Shown here: positions 34,325-41,869 of the stretch, in pieces | Layout: the number at the start of each line of letters is the position of its first letter | Numbering within the stretch: the stretch's first letter is position 1 | Assembly (NCBI GenBank): GCA_002862745.1 | Contig: PKDX01000017.1 | Location: forward strand, 1-64,000 | From: Bacteroidota bacterium | GTDB taxonomy: Bacteria > Bacteroidota > Bacteroidia > Chitinophagales > UBA8649 | DNA: 64,000 nt | Reading direction: 5' to 3' | Made by a program: the position numbers and the translations under genes | The notes under the pieces: model-generated | Databases searched by the model: none | What the model was told of the DNA's origin: nothing | The model's input: only the letters and a program-made list of their open reading frames with translations

Positions 34325-34479
34325 ATTTGACCTCCAATATAATGAAGCAATCGCAAGCTGAGGTGCTTGATGGATTTTTCCACACATTTTTTAAAAAACG
34401 ACAAAAAATGATATTCAAGTCTTAAAAGAATTGCTTACCAAGTCTTAGTTTTGCTATGTTTCTCAATAGACCGAGCCCT

Positions 34480-36159
34480 ATGAAGCGAACCCTTAGAAAT
34501 ATCTTAACGCTTGTGTTGTTCAACCTTGTTGCAACACCTATGTTTGCTGCTGACGATAGCGTGTCCAATGTTATTGTTTTTTCTTCTCTTGCCTTTGTCA
34601 TTGTTCTCCTGATCTTTCTGGCGCTTATAATGGGTGATCAGTCCATTCGTATGAGCCGCTCGACGCTTGCCAAGGATGAACAAGATCTTCCTCCATCATT
34701 TATCCCTTCGAAAAAAGAGATTTTTGGAATCAATGATGATCCAATAGCAGGTGATGCTAAAGTTCACGTCTTAGACCGAGGGCACGAGATTAAACTTGAT
34801 GGGCGTGCTGATGTCACCTTGCAGCATCCAGAAATCAAGTTAGTGAGTGTCCGTCCGACAGATTATGTAGGTATGCAGCCTATTCCAAAGATGTTAGTAG
34901 CAGAAGGTGATTCAGTGAAGATCGGTCAAAAACTTTTTCATGATCGTAAGCGAGATAGCTTCTTCTTTACTTCTCCTGTAGCGGGAAAAGTAAAAGAGAT
35001 TCGCCGAGGAGCGAAGAGAGCAATTACCGATGTAATTATCGAAGTATCTAAGCGAAACTCTTATGTTGACTTTGGTAGCGGTGATCCCAAATCAATGGAT
35101 CGAGAAGGTGTGGTTGAAAAGCTTATTGAAAGTGGTCTGTGGGTAAACTTTATCGAGCGACCATTTGGTATTGTGCCTAATCGAAGTACGCAACCAGACG
35201 CTATTTATATTTCAACATTTGATACGGCGCCTTTGGCACCGGATTACAACCAGATTCTTGCGTGGCAAGGGAAAGAAGGAAGAGCCCATTTCCAAAAAGG
35301 TTTAGACGCCTTAAATGTTCTTGCCCCTGAACAAGTTCATCTTGGACTTAATGCGGGTGAGCAACCTCATGCCGCGTTCACAGAAGCTAAAAATGCTACA
35401 AAGCACTGGTTTAAGGGAATTCATCCAGCAGGGAATCCTGGCGTTCAATTGCATCATGTTCGTCCGATTGGACCAAATGATAAAGTCTGGACTCTCCGTC
35501 CAGACGATGTAATTATGATAGGCCGTTTATTTGAAACCGGCAAATTGCACGCAAAACGCATTGTGGCGCTAACTGGCGATTGTCTCTCAGATAAAGCCTA
35601 CATCGAGGTTCCTTCAGGATCTTCAATCGGTGATCTAGTTAAGGATCGATTTGATTCCTACATGGCAACTGATGATCGCGATGCTGAAGAAAAGTCGGAA
35701 ATAAGTTATCGTATGGTAAGTGGTAATGTGTTATCGGGCTTGCAAATTGAGGGTGAGGGATTCCTCCGCAATGCTGATGCGCATGTCACTGTGCTCGAAG
35801 AAGGCGATAAGCATGAGATGTTTGGATGGCTTCTGCCTTCCTACCCAAGGCCATCGATTAACCCAACGATTCCTTGGTCGTTGTTTTCCTTTATGACCTT
35901 TAAGGCCAACACCAATACCCATGGTGAGCGAAGAGCTTTCGTGGTGTCAGGCCAGTATGAATCGGTGATGCCTATGGATTTATATCCTCAGCACTTATTG
36001 AAGTCCATACTTGCAGAGGATTTTGAGAGTATTGAAGGTCTTGGAATCTACGAAGTCTTAGAAGAGGATTTAGCCTTGTGTGAATTCGTTTGCACGTCTA
36101 AGCAACCCGTACAAGAAACCCTACGTCAGGGATTGAATTTTATCATGTCCCAACGCTAA
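34480..36159 (+). CDS. nqrA: Na+-NQR subunit A with extra N-terminal membrane anchor
   Basis: NqrA is the cytoplasmic quinone-site subunit of the sodium pump. The canonical domain begins around residue 92 (HVLDRGHEIKLDG; YVGMQPIPKMLVAEGDSV; FFTSPVAGKVKEIRRG) and continues normally to the end. Ahead of it is an additional stretch: a signal-peptide-like segment (NLVATPMFA) then a hydrophobic helix (about 36-57) followed by basic residues, predicted to anchor NqrA with its domain inside. Start at 34456 is also open. Total about 559 residues against roughly 450 in the family. First gene of nqrABCDEF-apbE. Confidence 0.92.
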   Translation: MKRTLRNILTLVLFNLVATPMFAADDSVSNVIVFSSLAFVIVLLIFLALIMGDQSIRMSRSTLAKDEQDLPPSFIPSKKEIFGINDDPIAGDAKVHVLDRGHEIKLDGRADVTLQHPEIKLVSVRPTDYVGMQPIPKMLVAEGDSVKIGQKLFHDRKRDSFFFTSPVAGKVKEIRRGAKRAITDVIIEVSKRNSYVDFGSGDPKSMDREGVVEKLIESGLWVNFIERPFGIVPNRSTQPDAIYISTFDTAPLAPDYNQILAWQGKEGRAHFQKGLDALNVLAPEQVHLGLNAGEQPHAAFTEAKNATKHWFKGIHPAGNPGVQLHHVRPIGPNDKVWTLRPDDVIMIGRLFETGKLHAKRIVALTGDCLSDKAYIEVPSGSSIGDLVKDRFDSYMATDDRDAEEKSEISYRMVSGNVLSGLQIEGEGFLRNADAHVTVLEEGDKHEMFGWLLPSYPRPSINPTIPWSLFSFMTFKANTNTHGERRAFVVSGQYESVMPMDLYPQHLLKSILAEDFESIEGLGIYEVLEEDLALCEFVCTSKQPVQETLRQGLNFIMSQR

Positions 36160-36168
36160 TAAGAGATT

Positions 36169-37524
36169 ATGAAATTGATTAGAAATTTTCTTGATCGTAT
36201 TGAACCAGACAAAAAGTCAAGTCCCTTTCTTCATACCCTATGGGATGGTTTCGATACCTTTTTATATGCTCCTGCCTTAGTAACGAAAAATGGCGTACAC
36301 ATACGTGATGGAATGGACCTAAAACGGACCATGATTCACGTAGTGTTGGCTATGCAGCTTGCTTTTATTGCAGGAGTTGTTAATATCGGTCACCAACATT
36401 ATACGGCCTTCGGGATGTATGGTGGTGCCTTCCAAGGAATTGGATGGAAATTTGCTTACGGCTTGCTGCAAATGCTACCTCTTATCATTGTAGTTCATGT
36501 TGTAGGATTAGGTATTGAATTCTTTTTTGCAGCGAAAAAAGGCCATTCTATTGAAGAAGGCTTTTTGGTGAGTGCCTTTTTGATTCCAATGATTATGCCT
36601 CCAGATGTTCCGCTCTGGATGGTAGCTATCGCCACAGCTTTTGCTGTTATCGTAGCGAAAGAGGCCTTTGGGGGTACGGGAATGAATATTTTGAATATTG
36701 CGTTAACAGCAAGGGTCTTTGTATTCTTTGCTTATCCTTCAGAAATTTCAGGTGAGATTTGTTGGATATCGTACGATTATAATGTCTTGCACAGCCTGTT
36801 AGGTATTAAAGCGCATACCGTTGATTATTTGGCCAATCTTCCCAATGGTGGAGTAGCCTTTGATTCGATGTTCGATGAAGCGGGGCAGTTTATGGCGAAT
36901 TCATCCGTATTGATCGATGGATGGTCAGGTGCAACTCCTTTAGGCTTAGCGGCAAATGGCGGTTGGTCTGCCGTGCAGGAAGCGAGTTATACGATTATTG
37001 ACCCTGTAACGAACAAGGCAGAAGTCTTTCAACAGTACTCAACGACTAATTTATTATTGGGTGTAATGCCTGGTTCTATTGGCGAAATGAATAAACTTGC
37101 TGTCATTGCAGGAGCGCTCATCCTCGCAGTATCGGGCATTGGTAGTTGGAGAATCATGCTATCCATGGTCTTAGGAGCAGTCGCGGTGGCTATTCTCATG
37201 AATATCCTAGGTGAGACACTTTATCCGAATCAGGATCATTTCATTAAAGTGCCTTGGTACTATCAGTTGTTTATGGGAAGCTTCTTGTTTGCCATGGCCT
37301 TTATGGCAACCGATCCGGTAACAGCAAGTGGTACAGACTTAGGTAAGTTATTTTATGGATTCGGTATCGGAGCTGTGGGGATGGTAGTCCGTGTGCTTAA
37401 TCCAGCCTATCCTGAAGGATGGATGTTGGCCATTCTATTTATGAATGTTTTCGCGCCACTCATCGATTACTTCGTATTACAATCAAACATCAAAAGAAGA
37501 GAAGCTCGTGTCCAAGTTCAATAA
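36169..37524 (+). CDS. nqrB: Na+-NQR subunit B
   Basis: A 451-residue membrane subunit with about ten hydrophobic segments. It carries a covalently bound FMN attached to Thr in DGWSGATPLG (Thr256), and GxxxNP-like and FMATDPVTASG motifs near the C-terminus. It passes electrons and takes part in Na+ movement across the inner membrane. Nine bases after nqrA. apbE in this operon supplies the FMN. Confidence 0.97.
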   Translation: MKLIRNFLDRIEPDKKSSPFLHTLWDGFDTFLYAPALVTKNGVHIRDGMDLKRTMIHVVLAMQLAFIAGVVNIGHQHYTAFGMYGGAFQGIGWKFAYGLLQMLPLIIVVHVVGLGIEFFFAAKKGHSIEEGFLVSAFLIPMIMPPDVPLWMVAIATAFAVIVAKEAFGGTGMNILNIALTARVFVFFAYPSEISGEICWISYDYNVLHSLLGIKAHTVDYLANLPNGGVAFDSMFDEAGQFMANSSVLIDGWSGATPLGLAANGGWSAVQEASYTIIDPVTNKAEVFQQYSTTNLLLGVMPGSIGEMNKLAVIAGALILAVSGIGSWRIMLSMVLGAVAVAILMNILGETLYPNQDHFIKVPWYYQLFMGSFLFAMAFMATDPVTASGTDLGKLFYGFGIGAVGMVVRVLNPAYPEGWMLAILFMNVFAPLIDYFVLQSNIKRREARVQVQ

Positions 37525-38236
37525 AGATTCCAATGTATACACCATAGGCTTTCTAGCGGTTTTAGCCTTGGTGGTCGCCCTCGTGCTCGGTGTGCTTAGT
37601 CAATCCCTCAAGCCGTTGTCTGATGCTAATATCAAGTTAGATACTCGCAAGAAGATTCTTATGTCTTGTGTGAGTGATCCTAATATGGTAGCAAACAAAG
37701 ATGAAGCATGGATTAACGGTACCTATGAAAACTCAATTTCAGGTATTCTCATCGACGTGAACGGCGATACAGTAGCTGATGTGGTTCCTGAAGGTTCGTA
37801 TGATTTCCGAAATGAGGTAAAGAATAAGGGAGAAGAGCGTCAAATTCCAATCTACTCCTACACTGATGAGAAGGATTCTACCTATTATATCCTTCAGATG
37901 ATCGGTATGGGGCTATGGGACGAAATCAACGGTTATCTCTGTATTGGTTCCGATTGGAATACAATCAAAGGAGTTGCATTCGACCACAAAGGAGAAACAC
38001 CAGGTCTTGGCGCAGAGTTGGTTAAGCCATGGTTTACGAATCAATTTATCAATAAGAAACTTTTTGACGACGAAGGGAATTATGCCTTCAAAGTATACAA
38101 AGCTGGAAAATACACATCTGGTGAGAATGGCGTGGACGGTATGTCTGGTGCCACGTTAACCACTGAAGGCGTCGATATGATGGTACAAGCAACCGTAGAG
38201 ATGTACGCCTCTAAATTCAACCCTGTAAACCTTTAA
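37508..38236 (+). CDS. nqrC: Na+-NQR subunit C, GTG start
   Basis: 242 residues from GTG 37508, which overlaps the nqrB stop by 17 bases; the frame is open further upstream to 37445 but that would be inside nqrB. One N-terminal transmembrane helix, then a periplasmic FMN-binding domain; FMN is attached to Thr in DGMSGATLTT near residue 216, an ApbE target motif. The GTG start gives the usual MSKFNKDSN beginning. Confidence 0.95.
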   Translation: MSKFNKDSNVYTIGFLAVLALVVALVLGVLSQSLKPLSDANIKLDTRKKILMSCVSDPNMVANKDEAWINGTYENSISGILIDVNGDTVADVVPEGSYDFRNEVKNKGEERQIPIYSYTDEKDSTYYILQMIGMGLWDEINGYLCIGSDWNTIKGVAFDHKGETPGLGAELVKPWFTNQFINKKLFDDEGNYAFKVYKAGKYTSGENGVDGMSGATLTTEGVDMMVQATVEMYASKFNPVNL

Positions 38237-38238
38237 TT

Positions 38239-38892
38239 ATGGCAGAAGTAGCATCAAGAAAGCCTTTGTTAAGCAAGCAGGATCGAAAATTAGTATCCGA
38301 TCCATTAAATGATAACAACCCAATTACTGTTCAGGTACTCGGTGTCTGTTCTGCGCTTGCTGTAACATCTAATCTGGCAAATTCGATTGTAATGGCCGTT
38401 GCAGTAATTCTGGTAACAGCAGCTGCTAATATTACGATTTCCTCAATTCGGAACTTTATCCCAACGCGCGTTCGGATGATTGTACAACTTGTTGTAATTG
38501 CCGCATTGGTGATTGCGGTGCGTGAAGCACTTCAAGCTTTTGCCTTTCCGGTCTACAAAGAATTAGCGGTATATGTTGGCCTAATCATTACCAACTGTAT
38601 TGTAATGGGACGCCTTGAGGCCTTTGCTATGGCCAATCGCCCATTTCCTGCTTTACTTGATGGTATAGGTAATGGCTTAGGATATGGTGTTATTCTGATT
38701 GCTGTAGGGTTTTTTAGAGAGCTTTTCGGCGCAGGAAAACTACTCGGGTATGAGGTTATTCCAAGTGCGGTCTATGATTTTGGCTACACAGACAATGGAA
38801 TCATGATTTTACCGATTGCTTCAATCTTTCTCATTGGAATCTTTATTTGGGTGCAGAGAAGCTTTAATAAGGACCTAATTGACATTTCTTAA
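38239..38892 (+). CDS. nqrD: Na+-NQR subunit D
   Basis: 217 residues, six hydrophobic segments. LGVCSALAVTSNL near residue 34 and TNCIVMGRLEAFAM near residue 127 are the NqrD/RnfE-type signatures; the conserved Cys lies in the membrane beside NqrE. Two bases after nqrC. Inner-membrane subunit of the sodium pump. Confidence 0.97.
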   Translation: MAEVASRKPLLSKQDRKLVSDPLNDNNPITVQVLGVCSALAVTSNLANSIVMAVAVILVTAAANITISSIRNFIPTRVRMIVQLVVIAALVIAVREALQAFAFPVYKELAVYVGLIITNCIVMGRLEAFAMANRPFPALLDGIGNGLGYGVILIAVGFFRELFGAGKLLGYEVIPSAVYDFGYTDNGIMILPIASIFLIGIFIWVQRSFNKDLIDIS

Positions 38893-38901
38893 ACCGGACC
38901 T

Positions 38902-39477
38902 ATGGATTTGATTAACATTTTTATAAAAGCGGCCTTTGTCGAAAACATGGTACTCATATACTTTCTTGGTATGTGTTCATTTCTCGCGGTGTCCAAGACA
39001 GTAAAGACTGCGCTTGGGCTTGGTGCTGCAGTAGTTTTTGTTTTAGGAATTACGGCTCCAATTAATTGGCTTATTCGAGAATACATCCTTGTACCTAATG
39101 AGTTGCTATTCCTTGATTTGATTGTCTATATCGCAGTTATTGCCTCAATGGTGCAGATCGTTGAGATGGTCGTTGAGAAGTTCTCTCCTTCGCTCTACAT
39201 GGCGCTCGGTATCTTCTTGCCGCTTATCACGGTAAACTGCTCTATTCTTGGGGGAACGTTGTTTATGATTACCAAAGAATACAATCTTGTGGAGAGCACC
39301 GTGTTTGGCATCGGTTCTGGTTTTGGTTTTTTCCTTGCCATCATCGCACTAGCGGCAATCCGAGAGAAAATTAAGTATTCAGCGGTTCCACCAGCACTTC
39401 GCGGACTTGGAATGGCTTTTATTATTACAGGACTTATGGGCTTAGCTTTTATGAGCCTAATGGGATTAAAACTCTAA
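38902..39477 (+). CDS. nqrE: Na+-NQR subunit E
   Basis: 191 residues, six hydrophobic segments. [18 protein letters not shown] near residue 14 and [16 protein letters not shown] near residue 110 are NqrE/RnfA signatures; these Cys residues and those of NqrD are known in the family to hold the membrane [2Fe-2S] center. Ten bases after nqrD. Confidence 0.97.
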
Positions 39478-39490
39478 AATCTAACTAACT

Positions 39491-40819
39491 ATGACCTATA
39501 TGTTGGCAATGAATATTGGAAATCTTATGATGGGGGTCGTCCTTTTTGCAGCGATCCTTTTTGCTCTCGCGGGAATCCTACTATACCTTAAATCGGTATT
39601 GATCCCTGCAGGTAATGTTAAGATTATTGTAAATGGTGATACAGAGAACCCAATTGAGGTTGCTCCAGGTGCATCACTGTTAACGGCACTTTCTACGAAG
39701 AACATTTTTCTTCCTTCTGCATGTGGAGGGGGAGGAACCTGTGCGATGTGTACCTGCCAGGTATCAGAAGGGGGAGGAGATATCTTACCTACGGAGCTAA
39801 ACCACATTAGCAGAAAAGATGCGAAAGATAACTGGCGCTTGAGTTGCCAGGTCAAGGTTAAAAATGATATGGAGGTGCATGTTCCTGAGGAGATCTTCGG
39901 AATTAAGAAGTGGGAATGTGAAGTGGTGTCAAACTATAACGTATCATCCTTTATCAAAGAATTTGTGGTGAAACTTCCAGAAGGGGACAGCCTAGACTTC
40001 GAAGCGGGTGGTTATATCCAAATTGATGTACCTGAAATGGTAGTGGATTACAAGGATATTGATATTGCAGCCCACCCAGACCACCATGGGGATGATCTTA
40101 TGAAGTTCCAAGAGGAGTGGGATAAGTTTGGATTATGGCAGTTCAAGATGGTCAATGATGAGCCTATTTTTCGTGCATACTCTATGGCTAACCACCCAGC
40201 AGAAGGAAATATCATCATGCTAACAATACGTGTAGCCACACCACCATGGGATCGAAAGGCCAATAAGTGGATGGATGTTAATCCAGGGATCTGTTCAAGC
40301 TATGTCTTCGGATGCAAGCCAGGCGACAAGGTGACGATATCTGGACCTTATGGTGAGTTCTTTATCAAAGAGACTGATCGTGAAATGCTGTACATCGGTG
40401 GTGGAGCGGGTATGGCTCCAATGCGCTCTCACTTATTCCATTTATTCCACACCTTGAATACAGGTCGTAAAGTAAATTACTGGTACGGTGGTCGTTCAAA
40501 AAGAGAGTTATTCTATATCGATGACTTTAGACAAATTGAGAAGAAGTTTCCAAACTTCAAATTCCATATTGCCCTTAGTGAGCCTTTAGAAGAGGATAAC
40601 TGGGTAACCAAGGAAGATGTTAATGACACGAAGGGAGATGGATTTATTGGATTTGTTCACCAATGTGTTATTGATCAATACCTTAGTAAGCACGAGGAGC
40701 CAGAGGAAATCGAAGTGTATTTCTGTGGACCACCGCTTATGAACCAAGCCGTCATCAAAATGTGTGATGATTGGGGCATTCCAGAGGACCAAGTAGCCTT
40801 TGACGATTTCGGAGGATAG
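39491..40819 (+). CDS. nqrF: Na+-NQR subunit F, NADH-oxidising subunit
   Basis: 442 residues: N-terminal helix (about 10-36), ferredoxin [2Fe-2S] domain with Cys78, Cys84, Cys87 and Cys119 (spacing 6-3-32 as in characterised NqrF), then FAD domain with RAYSMANHP and NADH domain with [15 protein letters not shown]. Electrons enter the complex here from NADH. Contains an acidic insert near residues 196-222 between the reductase strands. 13 bases after nqrE. Confidence 0.97.
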
Positions 40820-40828
40820 ATAGTTCAA

Positions 40829-41869
40829 ATGAACTTATTACGTCTTGTAAACATCTTATGTTTTTTAGGCATTACGCTGCTCACACAGTGTATTACGCAT
40901 GTTGAGGAAAATACAAGTGCAACATGGACTTATACCTTCCCTACGATGGGTACAATGGGGTATGTTAGTATAGCCTTAGATTCTATTGAAGATGTAGACA
41001 CTATAGCTATCATTGATGCTATTCAGGCGGAACTACAGGCCATCAATGAATCGGTTAATACATGGGATCCTACTTCCTACCTTAGCCGGTATAATGCGGG
41101 TGATACTTCATTACATCCTTTTAAGGATAAGGAATACGTTCTGATAGATAACATCCTAGCTAGCAAACGCTTTCACAAATTATCCTTTGGAGCATTTAAT
41201 CCGGCAGTAATGGACTTAGTGTCTTTTTACAAGGAGCGTGATGTCCATGAATTGCTGAGTGACGAAGAGCAGTTTATAGTAGATTCGATAGTTGAGGCAA
41301 TTGCTAATTTTCCAATGATTTTTGAACATCAAGGCGATGTTTTTCTTCCGTTAGATTTTTCGGCTATAGCCAAAGGCTATGGGGTAGATGCGATTGCCGG
41401 AGCGCTTAATACCCTAGGAATCGAAAACTACCTGGTTGAAGTAGGGGGTGAAGTGGTCACTAAAGGGTTCAATGATCGGAATGCGCAATGGGTGCTCGGC
41501 ATTGAGACGCCGAATACTTCTCTGGCAACCGATATCTATGCTAAAGTGTCGCTTAGCAACTTTGCCATGGCTACTTCTGGGAATTACCACAATTACAGAG
41601 AAGGAGATGATGGTAGCAAATGGGTACACATTATAGATCCAAGGGATGGCAAAAACAAACAAACTGCCTTGCTTAGTGCTACGATTGTGGCTAGAGACTG
41701 TATGACAGCTGACGCACTAGCTACTGCGAGCATGGTGCTTGGTGAGAAGGATGCACTCAACATGGTTGAGCAACTTCCCAATACAGAGGTCTTGCTAATC
41801 CTTTCTGCTCCGAATGGACAATATCGAACGGTAATGTCTTCAGGTTTTGAGAGCTTCTTGGCCGATTGA
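40829..41869 (+). CDS. apbE: FAD:protein FMN transferase
   Basis: ApbE attaches FMN to threonines of NqrB and NqrC. 346 residues with a signal peptide and possible lipobox (TLLTQC), FPTMGTMGYVSI, NESVNTWDPTSYLSRYN, DFSAIAKGYGVDA and GGEVVTKG, ATSGNYHNYR, HIIDPRDG: the ApbE set including the Mg-binding residues. Nine bases after nqrF, so the flavin cofactor loader is in the same operon as its two substrates. Confidence 0.96.
   Translation: MNLLRLVNILCFLGITLLTQCITHVEENTSATWTYTFPTMGTMGYVSIALDSIEDVDTIAIIDAIQAELQAINESVNTWDPTSYLSRYNAGDTSLHPFKDKEYVLIDNILASKRFHKLSFGAFNPAVMDLVSFYKERDVHELLSDEEQFIVDSIVEAIANFPMIFEHQGDVFLPLDFSAIAKGYGVDAIAGALNTLGIENYLVEVGGEVVTKGFNDRNAQWVLGIETPNTSLATDIYAKVSLSNFAMATSGNYHNYREGDDGSKWVHIIDPRDGKNKQTALLSATIVARDCMTADALATASMVLGEKDALNMVEQLPNTEVLLILSAPNGQYRTVMSSGFESFLAD

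Follow-up and report, generated by a model that had tools for sequence, protein, structure and literature searches.

An N-terminal extension with a predicted signal peptide and transmembrane helix is conserved on NqrA in an order of Bacteroidota

The current picture of Na+-NQR comes from a few enzymes, chiefly that of V. cholerae, in which 24 helices span the membrane and NqrA is hydrophilic. In the Na+-NQR structures, NqrA lacks a transmembrane helix and binds NqrB tightly, its C-terminal region being intertwined with NqrB residues 34–53, and NqrC and NqrF have one anchor helix each (PMC9325719, PMC10643135). An evolutionary survey likewise described NqrA as cytosolic and free of transmembrane segments (PMC4014512). 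Whether its role is purely structural or involves quinone binding is debated (PMC4014512, PMC9325719). In contrast to V. cholerae NqrA, the NqrA encoded in the window (the whole stretch of 64,000 nucleotides that was analysed) carried approximately 97 residues, comprising a signal peptide, a helix and a linker, ahead of the core.

The open reading frame at 34480–36159 on the forward strand contained the complete NqrA core, preceded in frame by these residues. The gene headed an nqrABCDEF-apbE cluster, in which nqrC to nqrF and apbE were named by eye, and was the single NqrA gene in a genome of 2.06 Mb rated 99% complete. The features were as follows.

34446–34453, forward strand: match TAGTTTTG to TAnnTTTG, a weak assignment; a congener has TAGCTTTA, without the final G
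34480–34548, forward strand: signal peptide of NqrA (residues 1–23, MKRTLRNILTLVLFNLVATPMFA), predicted cleavage after A23
34549–34569, forward strand: short predicted periplasmic segment (residues 24–30, ADDSVSN)
34570–34635, forward strand: transmembrane helix (residues 31–52, VIVFSSLAFVIVLLIFLALIMG), predicted N-out/C-in, from hydropathy and an AlphaFold2 helix
34636–34770, forward strand: predicted cytoplasmic linker (residues 53–97) with the conserved post-helix motif
34771–36159, forward strand: NqrA core and stop codon (residues 98–559), matching TIGR01936, PF05896, PF24836 and V. cholerae NqrA in PDB
36169–37524, forward strand: nqrB, with the N-terminal NqrA-clasping segment kept
37445–38236, forward strand: nqrC, the longest frame from the ORF finder, identified by eye from its sequence and its place among the genes; translation probably begins about 60 bases inside this frame
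38239–38892, forward strand: nqrD, named by eye
38902–39477, forward strand: nqrE, named by eye
39491–40819, forward strand: nqrF, including the N-terminal transmembrane helix typical of NqrF, named by eye
40829–41869, forward strand: apbE-like flavin transferase gene 3' of nqrF, named by eye

The whole protein scored 388.3 bits with TIGR01936 (NqrA), above the curated cut-off of 321.05, and narrowly missed that of the sister NqrA model NF003761 (443.8 vs 450). The Pfam domains PF05896 (NQRA_N, 84.9 vs 25) and PF24836 (NQRA_2nd, 143.1 vs 25) were both above their cut-offs. PF11973 (NQRA_SLBB) reached 18.8 vs 27, yet the entire C-terminal half aligned to V. cholerae NqrA. Family-model matches began at residues 98–101 and the V. 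cholerae alignment at residue 100. The core was homologous over its full length to V. cholerae NqrA (PDB 7xk3, 8a1u, 4u9o; phmmer E 7e-75), which was also the top Foldseek match of the predicted model (E 4e-34). Identity as RnfC, a paralogous family with a similar fold, was rejected, the TIGR01945 score of 40.9 being far below the cut-off of 245.95. Other Bacteroidota NqrA (approximately 450 residues) had cores about 35–50% identical, with nqrB adjoining where read, and were without the extension in the loci inspected outside the order.

The sequence-only reading had described about 90 residues ahead of the NqrA domain, running from MKRTLRNILTLVLFNLVATPMFA through a hydrophobic helix and basic residues to a linker with PPSFIPSKK. 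This layout and its coordinates were correct, and the 92 codons at 34480–34755 were open and in frame with NqrA. The extension began with basic residues and a hydrophobic stretch that ended in PMFA; a 7-residue spacer, a strongly hydrophobic segment of 22 residues and a polar linker of 45 residues followed. The Kyte-Doolittle mean of the helix was 3.16 over 19 residues. AlphaFold2 (12 sequences) gave helices at residues 2–21 and 28–63 and the NqrA fold (mean pLDDT 62), with low confidence in the extension, linker included (block means 30–69). Hydropathy, charge and alignment were the basis for assigning the signal peptide and the topology. Searches of the extension against Pfam, NCBIfam and PDB sequences returned no significant family, and a literature search, with most subscription journals outside its reach, found no described N-terminal extension of NqrA.

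NqrA was searched among relatives, in the order, class and phylum, and in one named collection, and the frames of 165 loci were read. The 114 distinct loci of the order were classified by hydropathy (two corrected by eye): 72 had signal peptide and helix, nine had the helix only and 33 had neither; a few members of the last class, drawn from the named collection, may not belong to the order (L030 falls with a different one in the tree). The signal peptide-helix architecture recurred in approximately 40 genera. Extension-bearing NqrA occurred in groups f1, f5, f10, f13, f18 (67 of 74), f19 and f22, and plain NqrA in f2, f6, f9, f11, f12, f14 and f17; named extension-bearing matches were labelled Saprospirales, Chitinophagales, Saprospiraceae or Bacteroidetes MAGs. 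None of the 42 class loci outside the order had the signal peptide-helix structure, the in-frame open stretch 5' of NqrA being a median of 15 codons. The open frames of other class and phylum matches, judged by length, were mostly 445–490 and too short for an extension. This comparison of N-termini over Bacteroidota placed the extension as conserved in a clade and not confined to this genome. Within the order it was lost in some lineages (genera g223 and g270 of f18), and therefore appears dispensable there. Three loci of genus g43 (L024, L128, L149) kept signal peptide and helix with a much shorter linker that had no FPxxxEIF. In family f33, genus g95 (L157 in G113; also G252 and G274), an insertion of about 50 residues split the NqrA match near query residues 281–297.

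The closest comparison was with the one usable congener (94% identity), which kept the whole extension with 22 synonymous and seven nonsynonymous changes over 100 codons, counted from the ATG at 34456. The dN/dS of this pair was 0.077 for the extension and 0.045 for the NqrA core. By part, and with few changes in each, it was 0.21 for the signal peptide, about 0.04 for spacer and helix (residues 24–52) and 0.024 for the next 40 residues, the linker, where constraint was strongest within the extension. Ten further close pairs gave 0.06–0.16 for the extension. These substitutions indicate strong purifying selection on the extension.

On the sequence evidence, a known subunit is present here in a real, conserved form with a variant topology. 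We consider it a genuine clade-wide form in which NqrA is probably a single-pass membrane protein, with a tether that would serve assembly or retention. Its N-terminus would act as a Sec signal, residues 1–23 would probably be removed by signal peptidase I, and helix 31–52 would stop translocation, leaving a short periplasmic tail outside and the NqrA core in the cytoplasm. The core would then dock on NqrB and NqrF as usual. By the most likely reading, helix and conserved linker would keep NqrA tied next to the membrane subunits and so help its capture or retention during Na+-NQR assembly, a role that we liken to that of the single helices of NqrC and NqrF for those subunits. The NqrC and NqrF anchors likewise tie a soluble redox domain to the complex by one helix, but the domains are other ones (PMC9325719, PMC10643135).

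NqrB was confirmed beside NqrA in relatives, and its NqrA-holding segment is kept in the window and in the relatives. Within the order, NqrB N-termini measured 43–48 residues with the NqrA extension and mostly 44–49 without it; an anchor that offsets a shortened NqrB clasp was ruled out by this near-equal length. Since the docking segment is kept, the anchor would add to normal docking and not replace it. The suggestions that a tethered NqrA would be held independent of NqrB and that it could change assembly or quinone access go further than the sequence data. NqrM (PF04400) was uninformative: the genome had no match, but neither did the control genomes.

The conserved motif behind the helix, with the consensus DNLLxIEA ... 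FPxxxEIF ... PxY (DQSIRMSR ... FIPSKKEIF in the window), suggests some specific contact too. Linker and helix could be read as a functional element that makes contact with NqrB, NqrC or a further respiratory complex, tethering being secondary. This reading is possible, if clearly less probable than the tether, and overlaps with it, the tether explanation being one of topology. It would fit the constraint on the linker in the closest pair and the sharing of DNLLxIEA and FPxxxEIF by most of the clade, but several lineages (g43; L124, L145) have eroded motifs, and the linker is modelled with low confidence. More tentatively still, helix and linker may add to Na+-NQR a 25th transmembrane helix peculiar to this lineage and in contact with NqrB or a different respiratory complex; supercomplex formation, the docking of NqrF or the access of quinone could then be affected, and the element would be more than a leash.

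In the 72 aligned extensions, the residue at −1 of the predicted cleavage site was Ala, Ser or Gly in 71, and Gln was found at +1 in 70. The two exceptions at +1 were the window and its congener, both with Ala (Ala-Ala vs Ala-Gln across the site). In Bacteroidetes, Gln is reported at +1 of most substrates of signal peptidase I, inner-membrane proteins not having been tested for cyclisation of this residue (Bochtler et al., PMC5837995). Lys and Arg were absent from the 12 residues ahead of the helix in 62 of the 72 extensions (mean 0.17), and averaged 2.6 in the 20 residues behind it. Because of the +1 Gln pattern and this charge bias, a cleaved signal peptide and an N-out/C-in topology with a cytoplasmic NqrA core are predicted. 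Together with order-wide conservation and purifying selection, the same two features uphold the earlier proposals that the extension is native and that it comprises a signal peptide and a transmembrane anchor.

In helix-only genes the start lay no more than a few residues from the helix and, as a rule, shortly after stop codons; lineages without the signal peptide kept the helix and, mostly, the linker motif. Since the helix persists in these genes, the function that was kept appears to be that of the helix and not that of the signal peptide. If the signal peptide instead stayed uncleaved, NqrA would be held by a two-helix hairpin (N-in, C-in), again with a cytoplasmic core. Both hydrophobic segments are modelled as helices, the +1 residue in the window's genus is Ala and not Gln, and constraint is weakest in the signal-peptide segment, all of which would agree with a hairpin. 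We nevertheless hold it to be unlikely, given that Gln at +1 in nearly all extensions follows the Q-rule of signal peptidase I (PMC5837995) and that loss of the first segment is possible, as in the helix-only variants.

In-frame ATGs were present at residues 21, 51 and 58 of the extension and 24 bases upstream of it (34456). The initial description, of an undisrupted frame with no better start inside it, was right about the open frame, with the correction that ATGs do occur in it. The congener has Ile at residues 21 and 58, which are therefore not conserved starts; it also keeps the upstream ATG. The likely start of NqrA is the ATG at 34480. TAnnTTTG is a promoter element of Bacteroidota, and the match at 34446–34453 would set a transcription start near 34460, just before this ATG, weakly favouring 34480. 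The inner ATGs and a second TAnnTTTG match within the signal-peptide region, at 34539, could be taken to mean that the extension is untranslated, NqrA starting near residue 58 or later behind a frame open by chance. This is highly improbable in view of the codon-level selection along the extension, its conservation in the order and the Ile residues of the congener, and such a late start was ruled out by conservation and selection.

Least probable of all is export of NqrA to the periplasm or beyond for another role: a signal peptide is present, but a helix with a positive cytoplasmic flank comes next, the gene is the only NqrA of a nearly complete genome and heads an operon containing all other subunits, and known structures place NqrA docking on the cytoplasmic side (PMC9325719).

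In a tree of the NqrA core, with the extension left out, the presence or absence of the extension required five changes, and three after thinning and dropping one very divergent row. In the thinned tree, the extension-bearing rows and three local losses (L109, L119, L112) were placed on one side of one branch, with an SH-aLRT value of only 70 for the extension-bearing grouping. A single gain with two or more losses would account for this pattern, which is no proof of it. Genus g241 of family f18 (L139, L140, L142, L144) had plain NqrA grouping with other orders, as did the neighbouring NqrB type where read, which suggests a horizontal replacement of the nqr operon. Another plain NqrA, L025 (G001, in the window's genus group), was the sole NqrA found in a 78% complete genome; it was 30% identical and on a very long branch, and may represent contamination or gene replacement.

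An order-wide anchored NqrA would mean that the subunit topology of Na+-NQR is not fixed, and homology models of this clade's enzyme based on V. cholerae would miss a helix. The natural variants (signal peptide and helix, helix only, lost) could be used to probe the role of NqrA. A profile of the extension, searched for a donor gene in 61 relatives, matched NqrA strongly and then CcoP and CcmD weakly, near noise; the best E-value, obtained in a single genome, was 6e-6. As an unrelated membrane protein encoded in the window likewise matched weakly (4e-4), common ancestry with CcoP and CcmD is not claimed. Bacteroidota CcoP and CcmD have the same style of N-terminus, with a signal-peptide-like segment, a short spacer and one helix. 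CcmD-like small proteins and CcoP proteins with a signal peptide-single helix N-terminus were seen at L202 (1495–1722), L203 (1498–1731), L204 (1255–2442) and L210 (369–1391). Over the whole window, TANNTTTG was depleted, with 22 occurrences observed vs approximately 54 expected from shuffles.
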